Below are positions 1,835-47,034 of a stretch of DNA of 64,000 bases, piece after piece. Below the pieces are notes generated by a model. The model was not told where the DNA came from. It was given only the letters and a program-made list of their open reading frames with translations, and made no database searches. The position numbers were made by a program, and so were the translations under genes. The stretch is from Nitratireductor sp. XY-223. Its GTDB lineage: Bacteria > Pseudomonadota > Alphaproteobacteria > Rhizobiales > Rhizobiaceae. Positions within the stretch are counted from its first letter, which is position 1, and every line of letters starts with the position of its first letter. Location of the stretch: assembly GCF_004959855.1 (NCBI RefSeq), contig NZ_SPNT01000005.1, positions 62,001 to 126,000 of the forward strand, in the 5' to 3' direction.

Positions 1835-2236
1835 TCAGGAGACCGTCAGGCCGGCACCCATGACCACTTTCTCACCGGTGTCGAGAACCGCGACGACGCC
1901 GTCATCGTAGAGCTCGACCTGCTCGACGACGCCGCTGACGGTGCCGTCATTCGATGTGACGGTGCGGCCGATCAGCGAGCCGGCCTGCGAAACCGAATTC
2001 GCCGCAAGCAGCTCCTCCAGCCGCGCGTTGGTCTGGATGGTCTGCTCGACCTGTGAGAACGAGGCGAGCTGCGCGATGTACTCGGTCGAATCCATCGGCT
2101 CGGTCGGGTCCTGGTTCTGCATCTCGGCGACCAGCAGCTGCAGGAACGTGTCATAGTCGACAGTTGCCTGCTCGGCCGCGCTCGCGGCCGCCGAGGAGCC
2201 TGTATACGTGCTGTTAGAAACTGCCTCTACCGCCAT
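1835..2236 (-). CDS. flgD: Flagellar hook-assembly scaffold FlgD
   Basis: A 133-residue protein with the conserved FlgD N-terminal block [39 protein letters not shown] (about residues 27-67), needed for capping hook polymerisation. It is short compared with enteric FlgD (about 230 residues) because the tudor/Fn3-like C-terminal domain is reduced, as is usual in rhizobia. Its start overlaps the end of flbT by 10 bases, suggesting translational coupling. Confidence 0.93.
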
Positions 2237-2676
2237 GGCGCAATCTCCTTCTTGATGTCTTCCAGCGTCTCAACCGGCATCTGACGGTTGTTGAGGATGT
2301 CCTCCTCGACCTTGTAGAGCGCGCGGATCGCCTTGAGCGATTCGAAGACGCGGCCCTCGGTGACCATCGCGTCGATGTGCTTGAGCTCGGTCAGGATCTG
2401 TTCGTTGCTGAAGCAGTTGAGCAGCATGACGATGGACTTTTTGAACATCGCGTGGGACTGCTCGGCCCCTTCGGGATTGATCAGCATCATCTGCACGATG
2501 AAATAGAGCTGGCGCAGCGGCGTCGACGCGTCCTCGGGCTGCAGGACGTGGTTCTCCAGCAGGAATGTTACGTCATTGAGGAACTCAAGACCGACTTTTC
2601 TGTCCACCCGGAGCACGGCCCCGTTGATGAAGATCTTTTCCCCGGTCTTGAGCGAAATGCGCAATGAACTCTTCAT
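2227..2676 (-). CDS. flbT: Flagellin mRNA regulator FlbT
   Basis: A 149-residue FlbT family protein, recognisable from the N-terminus [43 protein letters not shown]. In Caulobacter FlbT binds the 5' untranslated region of flagellin mRNA and destabilises it until the hook is complete; in Brucella and Sinorhizobium it also controls flagellin amount. It sits between flaF and flgD with 4- and 10-base overlaps. The three flagellin leaders in this window (14238-14318, 15552-15624, 16915-16994) share an RNA-like structure that would be its natural target; that link is inference. Confidence 0.93.
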
Positions 2677-3020
2677 TTAAGACCGTCCCGAATAATGGAT
2701 GAAATATCGATTATGCCTTCGTAATTCTGGGATTCCCCCGACCGGATCTTCTCGGTCTCGCGCAGGATCCAGATGCCGATGGAAATGAGATTGGCGCGCA
2801 GTTCCTGCTCCAGCTCGTTTTCGGGCGAACCGAGATCCTCGATGAAACGCACCCATACGCGGTTCACGAAGAACAGGGCCTCTATGGACTCTCGGGATTT
2901 CGGACCGTGCTCCTTCGCCTCCTCGAGCATCCTGATGGATTTGTCGAGGACCTGCCGTTCACGGTCCTTGGAGTCAGCAACTGCATCTTGCTGCACTTCC
3001 GCATATGAGAACTGATACAT
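2673..3020 (-). CDS. flaF: Flagellin synthesis regulator FlaF
   Basis: A 115-residue FlaF family protein ([21 protein letters not shown] start, with the conserved [20 protein letters not shown] segment around residues 50-70). FlaF acts with FlbT in alphaproteobacteria to control flagellin synthesis and secretion. It overlaps flbT by 4 bases (ATGA-type) and follows flgL after 45 bases. Confidence 0.93.
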
Positions 3021-13271: not shown

Positions 13272-14237
13272 CTAGCCCTGGAAGAGCTGCAGGACGTTCT
13301 GCGACGTGGAGTTGGCGATCGACAGCGCCTGGATGCCCAGCTGCTGCTGGGTTTGCAGCGCGTTCAGCCGTGTCGATTCCTCGTTCATGTCGGCATCGAC
13401 CAGGCGTCCGACGCCCTTGTCGATGGAGTCCATCAGGTTGGACACGAAGGTCTCCTGCATCTGGACACGGCTGTTGATCGCACCGAGATCCGATGCCACA
13501 TCGGTGAGCTGGTTGAGGATCTCGTCGGCGACGCGGATCATGGCCTCGACCTCGGCGTCGGTGGTTGATCCGGACAGGGCGATTTCCGTACCCGTGCCGC
13601 CGGTGCCGCCCGCATCGATCAGGAACCAATTGTCAACGGTGCCGGACGGCGTATCAAGCAATTGGTCAGCGTCAATGTCCTTGGTCAGGATGCCGCCGGC
13701 ATCTGACGTCGTGTCGATCAGGACGACAGCCGCGACATCGACATCAAGCGTTGCGATCGAGACATTGCCGGATGCGGAGCGGTTGAAGGAGCCAACGATC
13801 GAGGCCGTCGCTGCAGCCGCGCCGGTGTCATTGAAGAGCCAGTTCTCGCCGCTGAAGGAGGCCGATTCGGCAATCGACGAAAGCTGCTTCTTCAGCTCGG
13901 CGAGTTCCGAGTTGATCTTTACCTTGTCGACGCCGGGTTCGGCAGCGGCGACCAGCTTGGACTTGATCTCGTCGACAACGTCGATGGCGCTGGAAAGAGC
14001 CGTATAGGCGACATCGACCTTGGCGGCGCCGAGGCCGAGCGCATCGCTGACGGTGGACAGCGCCTTGTTGTCGGAGCGCATGGTCGTGGCGATCGACCAG
14101 TAGGCGGCGTTGTCGGAAGCGGTCTCGACGCGGTAGCCCGATGAAATTCGTGCCTGCGTCGTTTCCATTGAAGAGTTGATGCCACGGAGCGTCTGCAGGG
14201 CCGCCATGGCGGCGGCATTGGTCATAATGCTGGTCAT
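13272..14237 (-). CDS. fla: Flagellin (copy 1 of 3)
   Basis: A 321-residue flagellin. The N-terminus MTSIMTNAAAMAALQTLRGI and the C-terminus ending in LGIQALSIANSTSQNVLQLFQG form the D0/D1 helices, with TASDNAAYWSIATTMRSD the conserved early motif; the middle (about 150-215) is the short surface-exposed domain. Monomers are exported and polymerise into the filament. It is nearly identical to copy 2, with which it also shares long stretches of DNA. Its 5' leader carries the conserved structured element; its mRNA ends at the hairpin at 13229-13252. Confidence 0.96.
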   Translation of the reverse strand: MTSIMTNAAAMAALQTLRGINSSMETTQARISSGYRVETASDNAAYWSIATTMRSDNKALSTVSDALGLGAAKVDVAYTALSSAIDVVDEIKSKLVAAAEPGVDKVKINSELAELKKQLSSIAESASFSGENWLFNDTGAAAATASIVGSFNRSASGNVSIATLDVDVAAVVLIDTTSDAGGILTKDIDADQLLDTPSGTVDNWFLIDAGGTGGTGTEIALSGSTTDAEVEAMIRVADEILNQLTDVASDLGAINSRVQMQETFVSNLMDSIDKGVGRLVDADMNEESTRLNALQTQQQLGIQALSIANSTSQNVLQLFQG

Positions 14238-14318
14238 CGGGCTGCCCCTGTTACCAAAAAATTATAGAAAGGGGACATGCCGGATCGGTCGTGCCGGCAA
14301 TGGCGGCTGGCATCATGC
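14238..14318 (-). promoter_or_regulatory. Conserved flagellin leader (copy 1) with Shine-Dalgarno pairing
   Basis: In the mRNA the block reads CCGG hairpin arms (around 14279-14296), then UGUCCCCU (14277-14270), then the Shine-Dalgarno AGGGGCA (14249-14243) just before the start. UGUCCCCU can pair with AGGGGCA with one bulge, hiding the ribosome site. The same order occurs at copies 2 and 3 with compensating changes. Candidate site for FlbT; the structure is predicted by eye. Confidence 0.55.
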
Positions 14319-14449
14319 CCGCTGATCCGGATCGAAAAAGGTCAACCCGCCATTCGTTAACAAATCTACTAAGACTATGGTTAACAGAGTATTAACCCGC
14401 ACCGCAAGCGGTTAAATATCGTAACGAAAACGTAAATAAAAACAGATTG

Positions 14450-14486
14450 ATAAAAAGAGAAACCGCACCACTTGCGTGATGCGGTT
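14450..14486 (-). terminator. Intrinsic terminator of flagellin copy 2
   Basis: Reverse-strand stem AACCGCATCAC / GTGGTGCGGTT (11 bp, one wobble, GCAA loop; 14461-14486) followed by TCTCTTTTTATC. A strong rho-independent terminator about 100 bases after the stop of flagellin copy 2. The remainder of the 14319-14588 spacer is the AT-rich upstream region of copy 1. Confidence 0.85.
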
Positions 14487-14588
14487 CCAATTTTTGCCGG
14501 ATATCTGCGCCGAGGCGAATCGCTGGCGTGAAATGCCGCTGCGTCCGCCTTGGCGGTCCCGGCCCTGAAGAGGGCCGGGTGTCTGCCA

Positions 14589-15551
14589 TTACTGGAAGAG
14601 CCGCAGGATATTCTGCGAGGAGGAGTTGGCGATCGACAGCGCCTGGATGCCGAGCTGCTGCTGGGTCTGCAGGGCCGACAGGCGTGTCGATTCCTCGTTC
14701 ATATCGGCATCGACCAGGCGTCCGACGCCCTTGTCGATGGAGTCCATCAGGTTGGACACGAAGGTCTCCTGCATCTCGACGCGACTGTTGATCGCACCGA
14801 GATCCGATGCCACATCGGTGAGCTGGTTGAGGATCTCGTCGGCGACGCGGATCATGGCCTCGACCTCGGCGTCGGTGGTTGCCGTGGACAGGGCGATTTC
14901 CGTGCCGGTACCGCCGGTGCCGCCGCCATCGATCAGGAACCAATTGTCAACGGTGCCGGACGGCGTATCAAGCAATTGGTCAGCATCAATGTCCTTGGTC
15001 AGGATGCCGCCGGCATCTGACGTCGTGTCGATCAGGACGACAGCCGCGACATCGACGTCAAGCGTTGCGATCGAGACATTGCCGGATGCGGAGCGGTTGA
15101 AGGAGCCAACGATCGAGGCTGTCGCTGCAGCCGCGCCGGTGTCGTTGTAAAGCCAGTTCTCGCCGCTGAAGGAGGCCGATTCGGCAATCGACGAAAGCTG
15201 CTTCTTCAGCTCGGCGAGTTCCGAATTGATCTTTTCCTTGTCGACGCCGGGTTCGGCAGCGGCGACCAGCTTGGACTTGATCTCGTCGACAACGTCGATG
15301 GCGCTGTCGAGCGCCGTATAAGCGACATCGACCTTGGCAGCGCCGAGGCCGAGCGCGTCGCTGACGGTGGACAGCGCCTTGTTGTCGGAGCGCATGGTCG
15401 TCGCGATCGACCAGTAGGCGGCGTTGTCGGAAGCGGTTTCAACGCGATAGCCGGAAGAAATCCGAGCCTGCGTCATTTCCATGGAAGAGTTGATGCCACG
15501 GAGCGTTTGCAGCGCGGCCATGGCGGCGGTGTTGGTCATAATGCTTGTCAT
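14589..15551 (-). CDS. fla: Flagellin (copy 2 of 3)
   Basis: A 320-residue flagellin when started at 15551 (MTSIMTNTAAMAALQ); the longer frame to 15680 only reads through the leader. Differences from copy 1 are few, such as SSMEMT for SSMETT, LDSAID for LSSAID, LYNDTG for LFNDTG and STATTD for SGSTTD. The Shine-Dalgarno AAGGGG is 6-8 bases upstream. It ends with the strong terminator at 14450-14486, so the flagellins are probably separate transcripts. Confidence 0.96.
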   Translation of the reverse strand: MTSIMTNTAAMAALQTLRGINSSMEMTQARISSGYRVETASDNAAYWSIATTMRSDNKALSTVSDALGLGAAKVDVAYTALDSAIDVVDEIKSKLVAAAEPGVDKEKINSELAELKKQLSSIAESASFSGENWLYNDTGAAAATASIVGSFNRSASGNVSIATLDVDVAAVVLIDTTSDAGGILTKDIDADQLLDTPSGTVDNWFLIDGGGTGGTGTEIALSTATTDAEVEAMIRVADEILNQLTDVASDLGAINSRVEMQETFVSNLMDSIDKGVGRLVDADMNEESTRLSALQTQQQLGIQALSIANSSSQNILRLFQ

Positions 15552-15624
15552 TGTCTGCCCCTTCTGACAGTCGACATCTAAGGGACATGCCGGAGTGGAC
15601 CGGCAACGACGGTGTCGCATCATG
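15552..15624 (-). promoter_or_regulatory. Conserved flagellin leader (copy 2) with Shine-Dalgarno pairing
   Basis: UGUCCCUU (15587-15580) can pair over 8 positions with AAGGGGCA (15563-15556), one G-U wobble, closing off the ribosome site. Upstream in the mRNA is a small hairpin with GCCGG/CCGGC arms around 15588-15604, and then the conserved GCATGATGC (15623-15617 region). Confidence 0.55.
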
Positions 15625-15823
15625 CTCACCTGGGGTCCACCTGCGTAAAGGCGCCAACCCGGTCCGTCATTCGTCGCCAATACAACACATTATTAAGGTT
15701 AATCAATTCTGAACAAAGCCGCACAAGCGGTTGTTTTTTTTGGTTAATGGACGGTAAACGTTTACCTCTTGTTAACGAACGGCCCTGCCAGCGCCCTGAT
15801 CTGCGGAAAAAGCGCACAATACA

Positions 15824-15856
15824 AAACGCCGCAATCCCCTGCGGGATGCGGCGTTT
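15824..15856. terminator. Strong two-part hairpin between flagellin copies 2 and 3
   Basis: AAACGCCGCA (15824-15833) pairs with TGCGGCGTTT (15847-15856), and inside it TCCC pairs with GGGA. The flanking A- and T-rich ends make it a possible terminator in the minus direction for flagellin copy 3, the second hairpin after its stop. Confidence 0.6.
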
Positions 15857-15894
15857 CATCGTGCTGAACGAAAACAAAGTCAGCCAACTGGAAA

Positions 15895-15916
15895 GGAGCG
15901 GCCAAGAGGCCGCTCC
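15895..15916 (-). terminator. Transcript end hairpin after flagellin copy 3
   Basis: A 9-bp perfect stem, GGAGCGGCC / GGCCGCTCC with a TCTT loop on the reverse strand, followed by TTTCC, 36 bases after the copy 3 stop. It resembles the hairpin after copy 1. Confidence 0.65.
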
Positions 15917-15951
15917 CCGGTTTTACCTCATTCCGTCAATTGACGGCGCTC

Positions 15952-16914
15952 TTAACGGAAGAGCGAAAGGACGTTCTGGGTGTTCGAGTTGGCGATCGAG
16001 AGCGCCTGGATGCCCAGCTGCTGCTGGGTCTGCAGGGCCGCCAGCCTTGTCGATTCCTCGTTCATGTCGGCATCGACCAGGCGTCCGACGCCCTGGTCAA
16101 TCGCGTCCATCAGGTTGGAAACGAAGTCCTCCTGCATGGAGATACGGGAGTTGACCGCACCCAGGCTGGAAGCCGCATCGGTCAGCTGGCTCATGATCTC
16201 GTCGGCGACGCGGATCATGGCTTCGATTTCAGCATCCGTGGTGGATGAGGACAGGGAGATCTCCGTGCCCGTGCCGCCCGTGCCGCCGCCATCGATCAGG
16301 AAGTAGTTGTCAGCCGTGCCGGTCGGTGTGTCGAGCAGCGCGTCCGCATCGATGTCCTGCGTCAGGATACCGCCGGCATCCGAGGTGGTGTCGATCAGAA
16401 CGACGCTGGCAACGTCGACGTCAAGCGTCGCGATGGAGACATTGCCGGAGGCCGAACGGTTGAACGATCCGACGATCGAGGCGGTGGAAGCCGCAGATCC
16501 GGTGTCGTTGTAGAGCCAGTTCTCGCCACTGAAGGAAGCCGATTCTGCAATCGAGGAAAGCTGGTTCTTCAGCTCGGTAAGTTCCGAGTTGATCTTTTCA
16601 ACGTCGACGCCCGGTTCGGCGGCAGCGACCAGCTTGGACTTGATTTCATCGACAACGTCGATGGCGCTTTCAAGGCCCGTGTAGGCGATGTCGGTCTTCG
16701 CGGCACCAAGGCCCAGCGCGTCGCTGACGGTGGACAGTGCCTTGTTGTCGGAACGCATGGTCGTTGCGATCGACCAGTAGGCGGCGTTGTCGGATGCCGT
16801 TTCAACGCGATAACCGGAAGAAATACGCGCCTGCGTCGTCTCAAGTCCGGAGTTGATGGAACGCAGCGTCTGCAGCGCAGCCATCGCAGCATTGTTGGTA
16901 TTAATACTCGTCAT
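15952..16914 (-). CDS. fla: Flagellin (copy 3 of 3)
   Basis: A 320-residue flagellin started at 16914 (MTSINTNNAAMAALQTLRSI). The same D0/D1 ends and short central domain as copies 1 and 2, but more substitutions (NSGLETT, KTDIAYTGLESA, VASVVLID, LTDAASSLGAVNSRISM), so it is the divergent member. The first of the three in transcription direction. Its leader has the conserved structured element with a compensatory A-U pair in the CCGG hairpin. Confidence 0.96.
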   Translation of the reverse strand: MTSINTNNAAMAALQTLRSINSGLETTQARISSGYRVETASDNAAYWSIATTMRSDNKALSTVSDALGLGAAKTDIAYTGLESAIDVVDEIKSKLVAAAEPGVDVEKINSELTELKNQLSSIAESASFSGENWLYNDTGSAASTASIVGSFNRSASGNVSIATLDVDVASVVLIDTTSDAGGILTQDIDADALLDTPTGTADNYFLIDGGGTGGTGTEISLSSSTTDAEIEAMIRVADEIMSQLTDAASSLGAVNSRISMQEDFVSNLMDAIDQGVGRLVDADMNEESTRLAALQTQQQLGIQALSIANSNTQNVLSLFR

Positions 16915-16994
16915 GGATTTGTCCCTCGGGTAACCCGATACGATAGGGGACATACCGGACTTGATTACCGGTGATGGCGGATCGGCATCATGCC
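16915..16994 (-). promoter_or_regulatory. Conserved flagellin leader (copy 3) with Shine-Dalgarno pairing
   Basis: UGUCCCCU (16952-16945) can pair with the Shine-Dalgarno AGGGACA (16926-16920), where ACA replaces the GCA of the other copies and restores a full UGU/ACA pairing; an inner CGGG/CCCG hairpin lies between. The upstream hairpin has ACCGG/CCGGU in place of GCCGG/CCGGC. The rest of the spacer to fliP (to 17156) is AT-rich promoter sequence. Confidence 0.55.
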
Positions 16995-17156
16995 TGCCGG
17001 CCACCCGACGCACGCGTGGGGACCTTTCCCGTCATGTTGCCGGGCACTGTGACAATCAGCGGTTACGAAATGGCTAACGCCCTGCGGCAGCCGCACGGGC
17101 GCAACAAACAACTAAAAAACATGGTTAACAAAGGGTTTACCCCGCCCGGCAGCGGC

Positions 17157-17894
17157 TCACACGAAGGAGCGCACCAGGCTCCCGACCAGCAGGTTCCAGC
17201 CGTCGATCAGGACGAAGAACAGGATCTTGAACGGCAGCGATATCGCCGTCGGCGGCAGCATCATCATGCCCATGGACATGGTGATTGTCGCCACGACCAG
17301 ATCGATGACCAGGAACGGGAGGACGACAAGGAAGCCGATCTCGAATCCGCGCCTGATCTCCGAGATCATGAAAGCCGGGATCAGCACGCGCAGATCGACC
17401 TTGCCGTCCGTGGATACCGGCTGTCCGCGCTCCGCGGCGAGGTCGACAAACAGGTTCAGGTCCTTGTCGCGCGTGTTGGACAGCATGAAGTCGCGGAACG
17501 GATCGCCGATGCGCTCGAAGGCCTCCGCCTCGCCGATCTGGTTGTCGAGCAGCGGCTGGACGCCGTTTTCCCAGGCGCGGTCGAAGGTCGGCGCCATGAC
17601 GTAGAAAGTCATGAACAGCGCCAGGCTGATGAGGATGAGGTTCGCCGGTGTCGTCATCAGCCCCATGCCCGCCCGCAGGATCGCGAAGGCGATGACAAAT
17701 CGAGGGAAGCTGGTCACCATGATGAGTATGCCGGGCGCGATGGACAGCACCGTCAGCAGACCGAAGGTGCGGATGATCCAGCTCGCGACCGAACCGTCCA
17801 CGGGCTGCGTGAGTATGTTCGGGTCCAGGGTCTGGGCTTCGGCCGTGGCCACCATCGCCATCATGGCGAGTGCTGCCAGAAGTAATCGTATCAT
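17157..17894 (-). CDS. fliP: Flagellar export gate protein FliP
   Basis: A 245-residue protein, the usual length, started at 17894 with an ATGA overlap to fliL; the longer open frame reads back through fliL and is not coding. A cleavable signal (MIRLLLAALAMMAMVATAEA) and about four membrane helices are visible, with the FliP signatures VTSFPRFVIAFAILRAGMG and MSMGMMMLPPTAISLPFKILFFVLIDGWNLLVGSLV. FliP forms the core of the export gate with FliQ and FliR. Last gene of the long flgF-to-fliP run. Confidence 0.96.
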   Translation of the reverse strand: MIRLLLAALAMMAMVATAEAQTLDPNILTQPVDGSVASWIIRTFGLLTVLSIAPGILIMVTSFPRFVIAFAILRAGMGLMTTPANLILISLALFMTFYVMAPTFDRAWENGVQPLLDNQIGEAEAFERIGDPFRDFMLSNTRDKDLNLFVDLAAERGQPVSTDGKVDLRVLIPAFMISEIRRGFEIGFLVVLPFLVIDLVVATITMSMGMMMLPPTAISLPFKILFFVLIDGWNLLVGSLVRSFV

Positions 17895-36428: not shown

Positions 36429-36977
36429 TCAGAAAAACTCGACCTCATCCGCCGGCGCCGGCTTAGGCGCGACCGGCTGCTCGCGGGCGACCGCCTTGAG
36501 CGTCTCGTTGCCGCTCAGGATATTCTGCCGGGCCCGGCCGCTGACCGGCCAGAACTCCACCTTGCGGCCGAGGTCGCCGCCCAAGCTGGAGCTGACGACG
36601 CTGATGCCCTCGTCACCGAGGAATTTCTCTGCAAAAATCCCGTTCTTGCGCCCGACATCCGAAAGCCGCGACATGGTCTGGGCGCCGCCGAACAACTTGG
36701 CCTCGAGGCGGCCCTTGCGGGCGCCCTTCTGGAGCAGCGCATTGATCAGAAGCTCCATGAGATGCACGCCGTAGCGTGTCGCCTCGCCGCTCCCGCCGCC
36801 GTTCGCGTTGCCCGGTAAAAGAAAATGGTTCATCCCGCCGACGCCGGCGACCGGGTCGCGCAGGCAGGCGGCGACGCACGAACCGAGGATTGTCGTCAAC
36901 ACAACATCCGGCTGATCGGATACCAGGAACTTTCCCTGAATGACATGCAGGCGTTTGCGCGAAACATCGGCATTCAT
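36429..36977 (-). CDS. cheD: Chemoreceptor glutamine deamidase CheD
   Basis: A 182-residue CheD. The catalytic Cys and His are visible in [32 protein letters not shown], and [33 protein letters not shown] follows. CheD converts receptor Gln to Glu and adjusts CheA stimulation. Its ATG shares one base with the cheY2 stop. Confidence 0.95.
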
Positions 36978-37363
36978 TACAGCGCTCCGAAAACAGCCTC
37001 GATCGCGGCTTTCATCTTGTCGATCGTGAACGGTTTCGCCAGCACGTTGTTGGCGCCGAGGGATGCCGCCTTCTGCACCAGGGCACGATCGCCCTGGGCC
37101 GTGAGGATTATGAACGCGGCCCGTTTCGTGGCGGCGTTGCCGCGTATCGCCTCGAGCAGGCCGAGACCGTCCATCTTGGGCATGTTGAAATCGGAAATGA
37201 CCAGGTGGTGAGGGTCTTTCTGCATGATCTGGTAGGCCTGTTCTCCGTCGCCGGCAACCGTCACCTGGGTGAAGCCGAGTTGTTGCAGCGCGTCGCCCAG
37301 CAGCAATCTGCTGGTGACCTGATCGTCAACAATGAGGGCCTTAATCTTCTGGGCCATAGACAT
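36977..37363 (-). CDS. cheY2: Chemotaxis response regulator CheY2
   Basis: A 128-residue single receiver domain. The acidic pocket DD (VDDQVTS), phospho-acceptor Asp in [22 protein letters not shown], Thr in ILTAQGDR, and Lys in VLAKPFT are all present. In Sinorhizobium CheY2 is the one that acts on the motor while CheY1 drains phosphate. Shares single bases with cheB and cheD. Confidence 0.93.
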
Positions 37364-38421
37364 CAGGATGTCCCCCCTTTGCGGGATAATGTAGATTTAA
37401 GTATTTCCTCGCCGATACGGCGAAGCGGTAGTTGGTTTTCGACCGCGCCGATTTCAAACGCCGAACGCGGCATTCCGTAGACGACGCAGCTCGCTTCGTT
37501 CTGCCCGATCGTCGTCGCGCCCCCATTGCGCATCTCGAGCAGACCCTTCGCGCCGTCGCGCCCCATCCCCGTCAGGATGACCCCCACGGCCCGGCGGCCG
37601 CAGCGCTCGGCCACCGAATTGAACAGCACATCGACGGAGGGCCTGTGGCCGTTCACCGTCTCACCCTCGCGCAACCGGCAACGCAAAGATGTTCCGCCGA
37701 CGACCTCGAGATGCCGGTCGCCGCCGGGCGCGACATAGACCTTGCCCGGAACAATCGGCGCGCCGTCGGCGGCCTCCTCGATTAGCGGCTGGCACAACCG
37801 GTTGAGCCGCGCCGCAAAACTGCTGGTGAAGGCCTCGGGCATGTGTTGCGTGATCAGCGTCGGCGGGCAGTTTTTCGGGTAGTTGGATAGCAGCGTGATC
37901 AGCGCTTCCACACCGCCCGTCGACGCCCCGATCGCAACGACATTGACGCCGGGCCGATAGTCTTCGATCACCGCCGTTCCGTTGACCTTCGTCGGCGCGG
38001 AGGCCGCGGCTGAGGCGATGCGCGCCTTGGATTTCCCGGCCTGCTTGACCTTCTCGATCAATCCGGCGAAGGGCTGCGGATCGCCGGCCGAAGGCTTGCC
38101 CACGCAATCGAACGCACCCAGTTCCAGCGCGGCCAGCGAAGCCTCGGCCCCCCTGCTCGTCAGGGTCGAGACCATGATCACCGGCATCGGCCGGAGCCGC
38201 ATGATTTTCTCCAGGAATTCCAGCCCGTTCATGTTCGGCATCTCGACGTCCAGCGTGATGACGTCGGGATTGAGCTGCTTGATGGCGGTGCGCGCCTGGG
38301 CCGCGTCGCCGGCGGTGCCGATCACCTCGATGCCGGCGTCGGAATCGAGCACTGAGCTGATCATGCTGCGCATTGTCGGCGAGTCGTCGACGACGAGGAC
38401 CTTCACCTTTCCGCTGTCCAC
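37363..38421 (-). CDS. cheB: Receptor methylesterase CheB
   Basis: Started at a GTG (38421) that overlaps the cheR stop by one base, giving 352 residues as expected; a longer frame to 38733 reads back through cheR. A receiver domain ([19 protein letters not shown]; Asp in [20 protein letters not shown]) is joined to the esterase domain with catalytic Ser ([13 protein letters not shown]), His ([19 protein letters not shown]) and Asp ([18 protein letters not shown]). It removes receptor methyl groups. Confidence 0.95.
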
Positions 38422-39350
38422 TACGCGCCTCCCGTCCGTTTCTGGTAGGTTGTTATTCCCGAATTGCGGAAATGGTTCTTCGCCTCTCCGGAAACGCGCT
38501 CGGAATGACCGATATAGAGCCAGCCGCCCTCGGTCAGAAGGTCGCGGTAGCGCGCCCAGATCCTGGCCTGGGTCGGCTCGTCGAAATAGATCACGACATT
38601 CCTGCAGAAGAGCACGTCGAACGGCCCCTTGAACGGCCAGTCGCGCATCAGGTTGAGCTCGCGAAAGGTGATCAGCCGCTTGACCGCATCGTCGACACGC
38701 CATTGACCGGCCGTGCCGTGCGGCTTGAACCACTGGCGGCGCAACTCGGGCGAGACCGTTTCGATTGCCGCGTCGTCGTAGACGCCTTCCTTCGCATGGG
38801 CGATCACCATGGGGTCGATGTCGGTCGCGAGGATCTTGACATCATAACGCTCGGCGTCGGGCATGGCCGATAGAACCGTCAGCGCGATCGTGTAGGGCTC
38901 CTGCCCCTGGGAACAGCCGGCGGACCAGATGCGCACGCGGCCGCCGGCCTTGGCGCGGGACACGAGTTCGGGAAAGACCTCGTCGCGCAAATGATCGAAG
39001 TGGTGTTCCTCGCGAAAGAAGCGGGTGAAGTTGGTGGTCAGGAGCGACAGCATCTGCCGGCGCTCGTCCTTGCCCTGCGGGCCGGAGACAAGCTTGCAGT
39101 AACTCGCGAAACTGTCGACGCCGATGCGCCGGATACGCTTGGCAAGCCGGGAATAGACGAGAGACGCCTTGGTCTCGTTCAAATAGATCCCCGCGTCCTC
39201 GTAGATCATCGATGCGATGTCCCTGAGGTCCTTGGCGGTCATGCGAAACTCACCGTCAACGAGCACGTCGCCATTCGGCGCCCGTTCCCTGCCCGGTCCG
39301 GCGGTCCCGCCGGCCACCGCCGGCTTGCTCATGGCAGGCAATGCGCTCAT
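38421..39350 (-). CDS. cheR: Receptor methyltransferase CheR
   Basis: A 309-residue methyltransferase. The all-helical N-terminal domain and the SAM-binding domain ([62 protein letters not shown]) are intact. CheR may bind the DWTEF tail of the membrane receptor encoded at 42854-44821. It overlaps cheW by 4 bases. Confidence 0.95.
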
Positions 39351-39814
39351 GCAGCTTCACTTTCGCCTTCGGGGAATATCGATTCCAGCTCGATCAGGCA
39401 GATCATCCGTCCCTCGATCGCCAGCACGCCCTTGGCGAAGGACCGGTCGAGTTCCGACGACACTTCCGGCGTCGGCTGGATGTTGTCGTCGGTGACCGTC
39501 AGGATGTCGGACACCGCGTCGACGAGCAGGCCGACCACCTTCTGGTACACCTGGGCAACGATGATGACGTGACGGGCAGAGGGGTCCGATTCCTTCATCC
39601 CGAGCCGGCTTGAGAGATCGACGATCGGCAAAACCGCGCCGCGAAGATTGATGACGCCGAGGACATAGCCCGGGGAATGCGGCAGCGCCGTCGCCGGCGT
39701 CCAACCCCTGATTTCACGCACCGACATGATGTCGACGCAAAATTCCTGCTCGCCGATCCTGAATGCGATCAGTTCGCGGGCGTCCTCAGCAAGGTTCTTT
39801 GAAGTCTGATGCAT
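39347..39814 (-). CDS. cheW: Chemotaxis coupling protein CheW
   Basis: Started at 39814 ([22 protein letters not shown]) for 155 residues, four bases after the cheA stop; the longer frame reads back through cheA. Two SH3-like CheW folds, with [47 protein letters not shown] as the core. It couples receptors to CheA. Confidence 0.95.
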
Positions 39815-39818
39815 GGTA

Positions 39819-42125
39819 CTACCCCACAGCTGCAAGTGACATTTCGGATTTGAGCGCGCCGTTTCGCGATGCCGAGACAACCGCCTCGACATCGACGATC
39901 AGCGCCACCTGGCCGTCGCCAAGTATGGTGGCCGCGGCTATGCCGGGCACATTCGCGTAATTGGCCTCGAGGCTCTTGATCACCACCTGGCGCTGCCCCT
40001 GGATGGCATCCACCAGCAGGGCGCTCTGGCCGCCGTCCTCTGAATCGACCAGCAGGGCGACACCGGCAAGCGGATCCGTCGGCGCATTGCTGAAATTCAG
40101 GATCTGGCCGACATCGACCAGCGGCTTGAAGCTGTCGCGAATGGAGATCAGCTGACCGCTGGCGCCGAAGCCGTGTATGTGCTCGTTTTCCGGCTTGAGC
40201 GTTTCGATGATCGAGGTGAGCGGCACGACGAGCGTCTGATCGGCGACGGAGACGACCATGCCGTCGAGGACGGCCAGTGTCAGCGGCAGGCTCATGGTGA
40301 ACACCGATCCCTTGCCGGGGGTCGACGTGATGCTGACGCGACCGCCGAGCGCCTGGATGGAACGCTTGACGACGTCCATCCCCACTCCGCGGCCGGAAAT
40401 GTCGGACAGTTGCTCGGCCGTCGAGAACCCGGGCTGGAAGATCAGGTTGTCGATCTCCTCGTCGCTCAGCGTCGCCTCAGCCGAAATCAGGCCGCGGTCG
40501 ACCGCCTTCTGCCGCACCCTCTCGCGGTCGATGCCGGCGCCGTCGTCGGCGATCTCGAGCACGATGCGTCCGGAGCGGTGCTTGGCCGACAATTTGACGA
40601 TGCCTTCGGCCGGCTTGCCCGCGGCCTGCCGGTCCTCGGGCGTCTCCAGTCCGTGATCGACCGCGTTTCGGATCATGTGGGTCAGCGGCTCGGAGAGCTT
40701 GTCGATAACCGTCTTGTCGACCTCGGTTCCCTCCCCTTCGGTCACCAGGCGCACGTTCTTGCCGACCATTTCGGCCGCCTCGCGAACCGTGCGCGACATG
40801 CGCTGGAAGATCGGCTTGACCGGCTGGGCGCGGATGGCCATGACGCTGTCCTGGATTTCCCGGGTCAGTTGCTGGAGATCTTCCAGCCCCATGGTCACGG
40901 CGGAAGAGCCGGCGGTGGCCGATTCGGTCACGCTCTGCGCCAGCATGGCCTGGTTGATGACCAGCTCGCCGACGAGGTTGATCAGGCGGTCGATGCGGCC
41001 GAGTTCAACACGAATGGTCGAGCCCGCGCCGGTCGCCGATGCCCGTGCCTGGGTCTTCGGCGCAGCGGTGTTCTCGGCGGCGTCCTGCTTGTTGGCGTTC
41101 GCGGCCTGCTGCAATTCAATGACATTCGGCAATTCGAGCGTCTCCACCGGCGCGGCGGCGGCATCCTCCGCATCGTCCGCAGCGGCGGTTTCCGCCGGTT
41201 CCGGCGGCGAAGCGCCCTCGTCGGTTTCCGGCGCGCCGTCCTCAACCGGCTCGGCCTCGCCAGCCGTCGGCGCAGCATCTTCGTCCGCGGTGATCTCGAG
41301 CTCGCAGTCCCACTCGGCGAACTCGAACACCGAGCGCACGGCGTCTTCGTCCTCGGCTGTCGTCAGCGTTGCGTTCCAGGTCAGATAGGCGCCTTCCGGG
41401 TCGAGCGCGTCGAGGGCGGGCAGCTCAGACCAGTCGCAGTCGACCTCCAGCGTGCCGAGCTGATCGAGCTCGCGCAGAAGCAGCAGCGTTTCGTTGCCCT
41501 TGAGATAGAGGTCCGGCTTCGGCTTGAAGGCAATCTTGAAGCGGTTGCCGGCCGGCGCCTGGTCGGTGCCGAATTCGTCGAAGGAGAACGGGACCGGTTC
41601 GAATTCGGCATCGCTTTCCTGCAGATCGTCGAACTGGACCGGCACTGGTTTGAAATCGGATTCATCGTCGTCCGCAGGCTCGGCTTTGGACTCGGCTTCG
41701 GGCGCCGGCTCGTCGGCGACCGCATCATCGGACACGGGCACCTGGCCATTTGCCAGCGCCTCGAGATCGGCGACAAGCGCCTCGCAGCGCGATTTTTCGA
41801 CACTGCCTCCATCGCGGGCGGCATTGGTCAGATCGGCGAGGACATCCGCGGATTTCAAGAGGACCTTGACGACATCGCGGGTCGGCTCAAGCTGCTTGGA
41901 TCGAACGCAATCGAGGGTCGTTTCGAAGACGTGGGCAAAGCTGACAAGATCATCGAGCGCAAATGCGCCGGCGCCGCCCTTGATCGAATGGACCGCCCGG
42001 AAAACCGCGTTGACGGTTTCCGGATCGTCATCGCCGTCATTGATGGCGAGAAGACCGGTCTCCAGTTCCGCGAGTTGTTCCTCGCACTCCTGGAAGAAGA
42101 TCGCTTTGATTTCGTTCATATCCAT
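39819..42125 (-). CDS. cheA: Chemotaxis sensor kinase CheA
   Basis: Started at 42125 ([22 protein letters not shown] 8 bases upstream) for 768 residues. P1 carries the phospho-His in [24 protein letters not shown] (about residue 50); an acidic linker holds the P2-like region; dimerisation P3 is at about 380-450; P4 has the N, G1, F and G2 ATP boxes ([55 protein letters not shown]); P5 is CheW-like to the end. It phosphorylates CheY1, CheY2 and CheB. Confidence 0.96.
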
Positions 42126-42138
42126 CGCGGTATCTCCG

Positions 42139-42507
42139 TCAGGCCGTGACGCGCTGAATCGCGTTGATGAGTTTTTCCGGGTCGAACGGCTTGATGATCC
42201 AGCCGGTGGCGCCGGCCTCGCGGGCACGGTTTTTCTTCTCGGCGTCGCTTTCGGTGGTCAGGACGAGAATCGGGACCGCGCGGTGACGCTCGCTCTTGCG
42301 AACGTTCTCGATAAAGCCGAAGCCGTCCATGCGGGGCATGTTGATGTCGGTGATGATGACGTCGGGCACGGAGTCGCCCAGGACCTCGAGACCGTGGACA
42401 CCGTCCTCGGCCTGCAGGGTTTCAAACCCGGCGCCGCTCAGCGTCATCAGCAACATGTTGCGGATGGTGCGCGAGTCGTCGACTGTCAGTACGATCGTTT
42501 TTTTCAT
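42139..42507 (-). CDS. cheY1: Chemotaxis response regulator CheY1
   Basis: A 122-residue receiver: acidic pair in TVDDSRTIRN, phospho-Asp in DVIITDINMPRMDGFGFIENV, Thr in LVLTTESD and Lys in WIIKPFDPEKL. Together with CheA and CheS it acts as a phosphate sink in the Sinorhizobium system. It shares an ATGA overlap with the upstream cheS-like gene. Confidence 0.93.
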   Translation of the reverse strand: MKKTIVLTVDDSRTIRNMLLMTLSGAGFETLQAEDGVHGLEVLGDSVPDVIITDINMPRMDGFGFIENVRKSERHRAVPILVLTTESDAEKKNRAREAGATGWIIKPFDPEKLINAIQRVTA

Positions 42508-44903: not shown

Positions 44904-46514
44904 TCATGCGCTCCGCCTGACCGGCGTGGCCGGAACGGCCCGCGCTTCCGGGTCGAATCGCGGATCGGCCACGTGCCGCTCCGCGCGCTGCGCTTCACCG
45001 TCCGGTGAAGACTGGTTGCCGGCCGGACCGCCCAGCCGGAACCGGCGGACGATTTCACCCAGCTGGACGATTGCCGCCTGGACATCCTCAACGGATTTCC
45101 GGGCGTTGTCGGAACGTGCGGCGACACCGGCGGCCTCCGCGCCCGCCGTCTCCAGATCGGCACGCAGCCGGCTTATTTCCTCAGCTTCCTGTCCCGACCC
45201 CTCAACCGTGCGGGCGATCGCCGTATCGATGTCCCCGAAGCGGTCGACCACCTCGTCGATCGCGGTGCCGGCCTTGCCGACCGCCTCCACGCCGGCGTCG
45301 ATACGAGACTTGGTATCGCTGACGAGCGTCTCGATTTCCTTCGCTGCGTCGGTCGAGCGCTGGGCCAGCGCCCTGACCTCCTGGGCGACCACCGCGAAGC
45401 CGCGACCGGCCTCTCCCGCACGCGCCGCCTCGATGCCGGCATTCAGGGCCAAGAGGTTGGTCTGAAAGGCAATGTCGTCGATCGCGGCGGTGATCTGCCC
45501 GATCCGGTCGGCAAGCCCTTCTATGCCGTTCATCGCCTCGACCGCCCGGCCCATCACCTTGCCGCCGTTTTCGGCGCTGTCGCGGGCGCTGACGATTACC
45601 GTCTCAACGCCGCCGAAGGCATCGCGCGCGCCGCTTGCGTCTTGCAAGGCGGCCAGCGCGCCGGTGACGTCGCCGATCCGGCCGGCGGCCGATGCCGCAT
45701 CCGAGGCAAGTTCGCCGACCGCGGCAACGGAGGTCTCGGCCCTGTCGTTCCCCGACAGCAGGCTTTTCACGATTGTCGCGAATGTCGACTGGATCCGGTC
45801 GAGCGCAACGTTGAAGGTCGCCGCCAGTTCGCGGTGGTCCGCCGGGACCGAACCGGTGATGCGGTTCTGCAGGTCGCCGACCATCAGGCCGCGGACGGCA
45901 CTGCCGAACTCGGCGTTGACGGATTGCCGTTCCTGCGCCGCGCGCTCCTCGAATGCGGCTTCGGCAAGCGACTGGCTCTCCTCGCGGTGACCGGCCCAGA
46001 ACAGGCCGGTTGTGCTTGCCAGCACGGAGAAGACGGCGGCAGTTTCGTCAACGGCCGCCTCAAGACTGTCCGGCGCGCTGCCGGAGCGCGAAAACATGCC
46101 CTTCGGCCAACGCTGCTTGAGGATCTCACGGACAACGGGTTTGAAAATATGAGTTTGCGCTGCCAGTGCCCATTGCGGATCGGCTTCGTCGCGGGCGCAG
46201 GAGCGGCCCACTGAGCGGGCAGCCTCCTCGTATTGCACGCGGCCTCCCGGTTCGCCCAATTCGCCGGCCGAACCCAGGACTCTCACCATGGCGGCCATGG
46301 CGTTGCGCTGGCTTTCGAATTCGTCTTGCCGGCTGTCAGACGGCGCACGCAATGACTGCAGGCTCGATTGAGCGGCATCCATGGCGGCGGCAAACTCGCT
46401 GCCGACCGTTTTGGCTGCGTCTGCGCCGGCGTCGCCCAGATTCAGAAAGTCACGCTGCTGGCGCGCACCCGGCGCCCGGTCGTGTTCTGTCTGTGTTGAC
46501 GTCTGCCTGCGCAC
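44904..46514 (-). CDS. Soluble chemoreceptor-like protein (IcpA position)
   Basis: A 536-residue protein with no membrane helix. It starts with GTG at 46514 (GGGG 7 bases upstream). Residues 1-200 are a helical sensor of unclear family ([22 protein letters not shown]); 280-440 is the MCP signalling domain ([58 protein letters not shown]). In Sinorhizobium the che operon opens with icpA (mcpE), also soluble, and in Agrobacterium with a globin-coupled receptor. Whether the N-terminus is a degenerate protoglobin cannot be told by eye. First gene of the che operon. Confidence 0.85.
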
Positions 46515-47034
46515 ACGGTTTCCCCAACAACCCGGCGCCGTCGACCGGAACGTGTCGACGTGCCACTTCCTCCCGGACGGTCCCGGCGCGTTGACGATCG
46601 CGCGGTGAACCCTGGCGCAAGCCAGCCCAACACCCGTGGAGCGCTCACGGGGTTACGGTTCCAGTCAAAAAAATCTGAATTGAAAATACCGGATTACGAC
46701 CGGTTCAACGGAGTAGCCTCATGCCCATGGACCGAACGCGCTTGCGCTGCTCCATTCCGCCGCACTGAAACGCTATGGCGAATTCGTTTCGCTAAGGTTA
46801 ACAAAACCTTCAAAAATGTAGTGCGAATTAATCGATTCCACGCCAATTTTTATTAGGCAAATAGGTAAGCCAGTCTGGATTAATACTTATAGTTGTTGCA
46901 CACCTTAATATTACTTGACTATGCAAAGCTCAAAGTCACAAGCTTCGAGCAAGCTTTCTCTGCAAGGTTGCAGCCTATTATCGGAGCAAGACCTAACGTG
47001 TTCCTGTCATGATGACTGTGTGGAGATGTGCTGA
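46515..47034. promoter_or_regulatory. che operon upstream region
   Basis: A 520-base spacer. Bases 46650-47000 are AT-rich compared with their neighbours and should hold the che promoter (minus strand) and that of the mini-ORF at 47035. The six-operon flagellar element was looked for and not found. No tRNA, repeat or gene was recognised. Candidate promoter boxes (for example TTGCAC at about 46895 for the plus strand) are too weak to name. Confidence 0.4.

Follow-up and report, generated by a model that had tools for sequence, protein, structure and literature searches.

Flagellin control by CsrA and FliW, found also in Bacillus and tied to filament assembly, is in Campylobacter exerted post-transcriptionally via the leader, as far as excerpts of that literature go. 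In leader RNAs that sequester the Shine-Dalgarno (SD) site, an anti-SD helix generally lies beside a conserved scaffold. Anderson and Gober are said to have described control of flagellin mRNA by FlbT in Caulobacter in 2000. Since that year the protein has been regarded as a regulator of flagellin mRNA, with opposite signs reported in Caulobacter and Brucella and a mechanism described as unsettled (PMC4347634). The flg-Rhizobiales RNA (RF01736), listed in the available part of Weinberg et al. 2010 and said in an excerpt of PMC3765529 to have three stem-loops, stands upstream of a flagellar gene in the Hyphomicrobiales. Here we describe a leader RNA element of helices P1–P5, likewise upstream of flagellar genes, in a 64,000-nucleotide stretch of Nitratireductor sp. 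XY-223 (Alphaproteobacteria, Rhizobiales, Rhizobiaceae; NZ_SPNT01000005.1, 62,001 to 126,000), which we call the window and whose first letter is position 1.

The locus resembles the Caulobacter FlbT system in that the element lies in the flagellin 5′ untranslated regions of an flbT-bearing genome, with the genes for FlbT and FlaF among those of the flagellar cluster; the coupling of flagellin synthesis to assembly after transcription is also what we propose here. It differs in that P1–P4 were found in none of the 288 other genomes sampled from the class (which may or may not include Caulobacter) and in that its FlbT belongs to a deeply split subtype among the sampled FlbTs, a sample without the Caulobacter protein. 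Unlike the CsrA–FliW systems, its own genome has no csrA match (PF02599 is absent at E ≤ 1e-6 from this and 9 other sampled genomes of the order), and FlbT is no demonstrable CsrA relative. Like SD-sequestering leaders it has an anti-SD helix beside a scaffold, but the scaffold is shared with a che operon in which the anti-SD helix is absent.

Judged by sequence, the P1–P5 flagellin leader is distinct from the flg-Rhizobiales motif: RF01736 gives no gathering match in the window, none at E ≤ 10 in 14100–17200 and none at E ≤ 1 in the genome, and it consists of (U)UUGGG(G)AG-type repeats, next to proteins that by eye are FlgF-like (MENxLLVGLSRQ; loci L001–L030), not flagellin. None of the 4227 models of Rfam 15 matches the window or six element-bearing loci, and nothing comes near a family cut-off. 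We found no account of the element in the one open-access library searched, although subscription journals or supplements could hold one.

The leader element and its covariation

The leader is almost certainly structured, with P1, P2, P3 and P4 forming on the sense RNA, and on comparison of homologous sequences the fold is maintained by compensating mutations across rhizobia and their relatives. P1 encloses P2 and the mini-hairpin P3, followed by P4, a CCGG hairpin, and by P5, in which UGUCCC is paired over the SD site. P3 has the form GGC-AUGAN-GCC and corresponds to the GCATGATGC block of a preliminary description of this locus; its outer pairs vary (G-C, A-U, U-A) around the AUGAN loop, which together with the CCGG/CCGG arms of P4 holds the near-invariant letters. 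The P1 arms vary as well (AAUGGCGG/CCGCCAUU in copy 1, AAUGACGG/CCGUCGUU in copy 2, AAUAACAG/CUGUUAUU in leader L074, and others). The blocks of the preliminary description are all present, in the order given there, on the minus strand ahead of three flagellin genes that start at 14237, 15551 and 16914 and match the Pfam domains for the flagellin N and C termini. Overlooked there were P1 and P2, the fact that GCATGATGC forms a hairpin, and one more site, the fourth, described below.

A flagellin N-terminus query has matches in 124 of 151 genomes of the family; 30 loci from the best places among the matches listed, and 80 more fetched, gave 126 distinct leaders once repeats were dropped. The CATGANG box is found in 108 of them, the CCGG hairpin in 105, CGGNNTG[TA]CC in 88, and all three in 74. 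The model R1, built from 67 leaders including the three window copies and hence biased toward them, scores copies 1, 2 and 3 at 86.3, 71.7 and 78.3 bits (E ≤ 7.1e-26 genome-wide). Because these scores are high and the blocks recur in most of the 126 leaders, a chance origin is excluded.

Covariation was measured in two alignments. Alignment A1 holds 67 leaders aligned with MAFFT without structure, picked for carrying all three blocks (a somewhat looser pattern gives 78) and thinned at 80% identity, and is thus not a random sample; A4 holds 136 elements from the order, found by covariance models and aligned with MAFFT only. RNAalifold recovers P1 and P5 from A1 unaided, and P2 emerges as the strongest diagonal linking the box to the 5′ arm of P1. 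Over the 32 pairs of P1–P5 in A1, 83.7% of cells are paired, against 74.4% with partners redealt and at most 46.7% when slid, with double changes in 23 pairs; in A4 the figure is 80.5% against 69.9% shuffled, with double changes in 20 of 22 pairs. When substitutions are reconstructed on a FastTree phylogeny and replayed at random columns, 10 of the 22 structure pairs of A4 pass at E < 0.05 and none outside the structure does (helix p: P1 1e-15, P2 1.6e-8, P3 and P4 1.1e-5 each). The same tree-aware null passes 5 of 31 pairs in A1, again none outside (P1 4.5e-13, P2 2.3e-10, P3 5.1e-4, P4 0.014). A one-base P1 shift in 22 of the 136 rows of A4 weakens rather than strengthens its counts. Finally, G-U cells exceed the mirror A-C cells in the helices of both alignments (132 versus 37 in A1, 173 versus 93 in A4), which favours the sense RNA. 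For copy 2 and for the che site the minimum free energy structure (MFE) is identical to the model, and that of copy 1 has P1–P3 without P4.

The likely start of the transcript lies close to P1. Of 104 leaders, 31 have a TTAA-N7-TTAA box upstream, which we take to be of CtrA type; shuffling gives a mean of 0.36. Among 108 leaders with a P1 coordinate it ends 25–29 nt before P1 in 26, copy 1 included; a further 14 boxes end at most 2 nt from P1, and 6 lie elsewhere. A CtrA site is expected near −35, so that a box of this kind at the fixed distance would put the predicted RNA start about at P1. In Sinorhizobium meliloti, CtrA motifs are reported, in the part of PMC3616915 available, upstream of the flaA, flaC, flaD, mcpE and mcpY starts.

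The P5 helix and the Shine-Dalgarno site

A structured leader hiding the ribosome site was the central claim of the preliminary description. The claim is well supported in that P1–P4 covary and the SD is predicted to be less accessible than in shuffled leaders; the specific P5 pairing is conserved but does not significantly covary. As written there, the pairing is complete only in copy 2 (UGUCCCUU/AAGGGGCA), because in copies 1 and 3 a C opposes an A after 6 bp, leaving UGUCCC/GGGGCA and UGUCCC/GGGACA. Changes between copies had been said to keep the pairing: in P5 they are one-sided (U-G versus U-A) with a 2-bp extension, and among the pairings proposed the CCGG hairpin alone has a double change (G-C versus A-U).

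We surveyed P5 in 265 leaders, many of them found by model, of which 229 could be parsed and 36 were dropped for misfitting the pattern. AUGUCCC is kept in 163, of which all but five (158) also show GGGRC close to the start. In the 66 deviant leaders the pairing is a little stronger with the leader's own SD than with another (16 of 300 swaps as good), and compensatory change in their P5 helices is suggestive only, with one clear case (UGUUCC/GGAACA in L183). SD accessibility was computed for the 82 of the 126 leaders with a GGGRC site and parsed P3–P4, the other 44 misfitting the pattern. The mean unpaired probability is 0.082, against 0.237 with the upstream part shuffled, and is lower in 72 of the 82; window copies 1–3 have 0.017, 0.016 and 0.002. 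We judge that P5 quite probably serves as a functional SD lock.

In one group of flagellin leaders (L045, L048, L052, L065, L253, L270 and others) the P2 loop holds CCAGGGCAAA, which resembles the leader's own SD. AUGUCCC is kept in 29 of 65 leaders flagged for CCAGGGCAAA and in 134 of 164 others (p 9e-8, ignoring relatedness and with a loose pattern that admits some false cases); none of the three window copies is flagged.

Distribution and elements without P5

R1 matches 82 of 249 genomes of the order at E ≤ 0.1 and 55 at E ≤ 1e-5. All 55 have flagellin (PF00669), while none of the 136 genomes of the order without flagellin has a match at E ≤ 1e-5, and in 28 of the 29 best loci of the order (L157–L185) the flagellin start lies at, or within one codon of, the end of the match. 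The model R2, which covers P1–P4 only and was built partly from the fourth window site, matches 75 of 101 family genomes. In the class sample of 289 genomes, which includes a few of the same order, R2 at E ≤ 0.001 under strict filters finds only the genome described here.

R1 has one further match in this genome (window 46672–46781, E 3.3e-7) besides the three flagellin leaders; R2 recovers the same four sites, the fourth at E 6.4e-5. This fourth site carries P1–P4 without P5 and stands ≈170 nt before a gene for a methyl-accepting chemotaxis protein (MCP), followed on the same strand by a second MCP gene and the che genes, 30 kb from the flagellin genes. Since this che operon element lacks P5, hiding of the flagellin SD cannot be the sole role. 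The long gap between P4 and the MCP start (46514–46687) contains a CCCGUG/CACGGG hairpin.

Two further samples show what follows the element elsewhere; che genes downstream were looked at in the window only. Among 20 family matches, mostly chosen away from flagellins, 3 precede flagellins and 17 do not: by eye, 14 of the latter precede a protoglobin MCP (Pfam agrees in 3 of 3 tried) and 2 another MCP-like gene (1 of 1 tried), while 1 is left without assignment. The 20 order matches, drawn from those with lower scores or in unusual places, divide evenly: 10 stand ahead of flagellins, one of them at a distance of 113 nt, and the other 10 do not. MCP-like genes follow L186–L189 and L194 (Pfam on L188 only), a PAS-GGDEF-EAL gene follows L190 and a CheA-like frame L195 (both Pfam), and open reading frames (ORFs) without assignment follow L192, L193 and L198. 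The L190 gene hints at a link to cyclic di-GMP (c-di-GMP). L181 (1501–1635, minus strand) has the complete element, P5 included, before a short protein in which, by eye, AAYWSI resembles flagellin; a FliF-like frame comes right after it.

UGUCCC follows P4 in none of the 22 aligned non-flagellin elements, and the AUGAN loop and CCGG hairpin are kept in all 22, as in nearly all 136 elements of A4. We had considered pairing of the P3 loop with AUGUCC as an anti-anti-SD and dropped it; such a role is not needed, because the loop is kept in these 22 elements without UGUCCC.

The positions of all features are collected in Table 1. The nearest named flagellin, 97% identical to a window flagellin, is from Hoeflea poritis E7-10, and by this measure the window belongs to a Hoeflea-like member of the family. 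A hairpin with a T-run after flagellin copy 2 (14452–14515), weakly RF02353-like (19.7 bits, cut-off 39, E 0.066), is probably a terminator.

Table 1. Features of the leader elements and neighbouring genes (window positions; sequences as RNA except the CtrA-type box)
Feature	Position	Strand	Basis or remark
Copy 1 CtrA-type box TTAATACTCTGTTAAC; TTAA-N7-TTAA ends 26 nt 5′ of P1	14380..14395	-	
Copy 1 P1 5′ arm AAUGGCGG	14347..14354	-	P1 covariation
Copy 1 P1 3′ arm CCGCCAUU	14299..14306	-	present in MFE
Copy 1 P2 5′ arm GUUGA	14342..14346	-	
Copy 1 P2 3′ arm UCAGC	14321..14325	-	
Copy 1 P3 GGC-AUGAU-GCC (GCATGATGC block)	14309..14319	-	near-invariant AUGAN loop
Copy 1 P4 5′ arm GCCGG	14294..14298	-	P4 absent from copy 1 MFE
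Copy 1 P4 3′ arm CCGGC	14279..14283	-	
Copy 1 P5 5′ arm, anti-SD, UGUCCC	14272..14277	-	
Copy 1 P5 3′ arm overlapping SD, GGGGCA	14243..14248	-	SD accessibility prediction
Copy 2 P1 5′ arm AAUGACGG	15664..15671	-	in MFE
Copy 2 P1 3′ arm CCGUCGUU	15605..15612	-	in MFE
Copy 2 P2 arms and apical part	15628..15663	-	in MFE
Copy 2 P3 GCAUGAUGC	15617..15625	-	in MFE
Copy 2 P4 GCCGG...CCGGC	15589..15604	-	in MFE
Copy 2 P5 5′ arm UGUCCCUU	15580..15587	-	in MFE
Copy 2 P5 3′ arm with SD AAGGGGCA	15556..15563	-	in MFE; SD accessibility prediction
Copy 3 P1 5′ arm AUGACGG, one A-C mismatch with partner	17029..17035	-	not in MFE
Copy 3 P1 3′ arm CCGCCAU	16974..16980	-	
Copy 3 P3 GGCAUGAUGCC	16984..16994	-	MFE checked
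Copy 3 P4 ACCGG...CCGGU	16954..16972	-	MFE checked
Copy 3 P5 5′ arm UGUCCC	16947..16952	-	MFE checked
Copy 3 P5 3′ arm with SD GGGACA	16920..16925	-	MFE checked; SD accessibility prediction
Fourth site, P1–P4, no P5	46688..46762	-	R1 (not built from this site) E 3.3e-7; MFE = model
Fourth site P1	46756-46762 / 46706-46712	-	
Fourth site P2	46751-46755 / 46727-46731	-	
Fourth site P3	46715-46725	-	
Fourth site P4	46700-46704 / 46688-46692	-	
Flagellin gene copy 1	13272..14237	-	Pfam
Flagellin gene copy 2	14589..15551	-	Pfam
Flagellin gene copy 3	15952..16914	-	Pfam
FlbT, NGAV subtype, candidate reader	2227..2676	-	PF07378, 1.9e-42
FlaF, beside flbT	2673..3020	-	Pfam
First ORF downstream of the fourth site, an MCP gene with uncertain start codon	44904..46514	-	Pfam
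CheY-like, CheA, CheW, CheR, CheB, CheY-like, CheD, downstream	36429..42507	-	

Candidate readers and competing explanations

The element is likely to be read by a protein, for which FlbT is a plausible candidate. The flbT gene reported in the preliminary description was confirmed by Pfam, and among the 55 genomes of the order with a firm R1 match FlbT is present in 54, the exception being a genome 86% complete. In the FlbT tree one deep split (support 100/100) separates an NGAV type from the rest, which are mostly GDSVITN-like. We chose 61 proteins so that both types were represented (window 2227–2676, L338–L357 and L378–L417); of their genes, 21 of the 28 of NGAV type have the element within 60 kb and none of the 33 others does. 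Six sampled non-NGAV copies come from element-bearing genomes, and none is near the element; in five of those genomes, where the NGAV-type copy was sampled too, that copy stands 12–13 kb from it. Some genomes carry both subtypes on two flbT copies. We put the chance that FlbT is the reader at about even; the associations fit NGAV-type FlbT in that role and, equally well, inheritance of one gene cluster.

An N-terminal KxGExIxI stretch of FlbT resembles CsrA, yet the profile comparison covers 15 columns at Probab 0.35 of 100, and column shuffles match its score in 1 of 100 for non-NGAV FlbTs and in 25 of 100 for the NGAV type, so that we rejected FlbT as a CsrA relative. Sequence comparison turned up no relative of FlbT with a solved structure, and a single-sequence AlphaFold model of the window protein is poor (mean predicted local distance difference test score, pLDDT, 60; first 50 residues 38–52).

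Overall, the explanation that we believe fits best, and to which we would give an even chance, is a protein-read leader RNA that marks late flagellar transcripts, to which flagellin adds P5 as a lock on its translation. In flagellin mRNAs the P5 helix (AUGUCCC with GGGRCA) is predicted to hide the SD, a trans-acting protein would dock on P1–P4 and shift P5, and flagellin would then be translated only once the hook-basal body is ready; the likeliest reader would be the FlbT encoded in this cluster, which is of NGAV type, acting together with FlaF. At the che operon this dock would work in the absence of P5, via message stability or another route. A more specific version is tentative, possible rather than probable: P1–P4 would be an order-wide docking site marking class III flagellar transcripts for NGAV-type FlbT; the proteins of the filament and of chemotaxis would then be made together at one assembly checkpoint, with the P5 lock added on flagellins and, in one leader class, replaced or supplemented by the CCAGGGCAAA SD mimic in the P2 loop. 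The class III set would, equally tentatively, comprise the flagellins, the che operon and some other chemoreceptor and c-di-GMP genes.

A number of observations speak against this explanation. For P5, the covariation check that the preliminary description called for gave p = 0.076 (Fisher, A1, tree-aware) where P1–P4 are significant; 66 of 229 parsed leaders lack AUGUCCC, and the 163 consensus leaders pair slightly better with swapped SDs (300 of 300 swaps as good). For the fold, a stricter one-set test over all A1 pairs leaves one pair at E < 0.05, copy 3 carries the P1 mismatch and has an MFE without P1, and unconstrained MFEs of the 82 leaders show P5 in 54, P4 in 54 and P3 in 43. Single sequences fold no better than shuffles (z −0.39, −0.63, −0.55 and −1.24), and because these whole-leader energies are not unusual we make no claim from stability. 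The 22 non-flagellin elements covary slightly (0.129 versus 0.106, in a fitted alignment), with P2 54% paired. For FlbT, 121 of 175 genomes bearing it have no firm element match, 51 of those with flagellin, and because the subtype is one deep split in the tree, its association with the element may go back to just one event of inheritance.

The wide occurrence of FlbT would favour another protein reader, such as an Hfq-RNA complex or an order-specific protein. Hfq acts globally, however, which would leave unexplained why the element is seen chiefly on late flagellar genes; the contrast between NGAV and other flbT copies within single genomes also counts against a reader other than FlbT, which we consider unlikely. 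On its side is an Agrobacterium hfq mutant with less Fla, FlaB and McpA protein, as given in the available part of PMC4201532. It is also conceivable, if distinctly improbable, that the element is mainly a 5′-end stability or processing structure in which P1, at the start of the transcript, has a protective role for the message, while P5 does no more than hold initiation at a constant low rate, without any switch. The fixed distance behind the CtrA-type box in 26 of 108 leaders, by which P1 probably begins the RNA, the absence of P5 from the che copy and the other non-flagellin elements, and the lack of significant P5 covariation are all consistent with this, but a stem that served stability would have no need of the AUGAN loop or of the CCGG hairpin, both of which are kept in the 22 non-flagellin elements and in nearly all of A4.

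A multi-helix core with near-invariant letters and a separable SD-hiding helix would also suit a small-molecule riboswitch, with P1–P4 as aptamer and P5 as expression platform, perhaps for a motility second messenger as the L190 gene might suggest. Against this, no Rfam riboswitch matches, the strands of the P1/P2/P3 junction are short and variable in the alignments, which would be unusual for an aptamer, and the targets have an organelle in common, not a metabolite; we think it very unlikely. A DNA element, either a promoter operator or a cruciform, is suggested by the CtrA-type box just upstream and is scarcely credible, since compensating helix variation and the G-U excess on the sense strand are unlike a DNA site. 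Least weight of all, practically none, falls on a leader peptide (upstream ORF) starting at the P3 AUG: AUGA is near-invariant and the copy 2 frame is open from it into flagellin (ORF 14589–15680), yet among 224 leaders the P3 frame is open to the start in 105, fewer than the 126 in which the other non-trivial frame is open; only 32 have SD-like letters before the AUG, and stop positions are scattered. We rejected it for want of a conserved open frame with an SD in these leaders.

The element is thus a defined, covarying structure, near one FlbT subtype in the sample and present on two classes of late transcript, and as such offers an exact substrate for the FlbT question. It could explain the post-transcriptional coupling of flagellin and chemotaxis synthesis in rhizobia and their relatives, and it gives the old question of how flagellin production is timed in these bacteria a concrete target.

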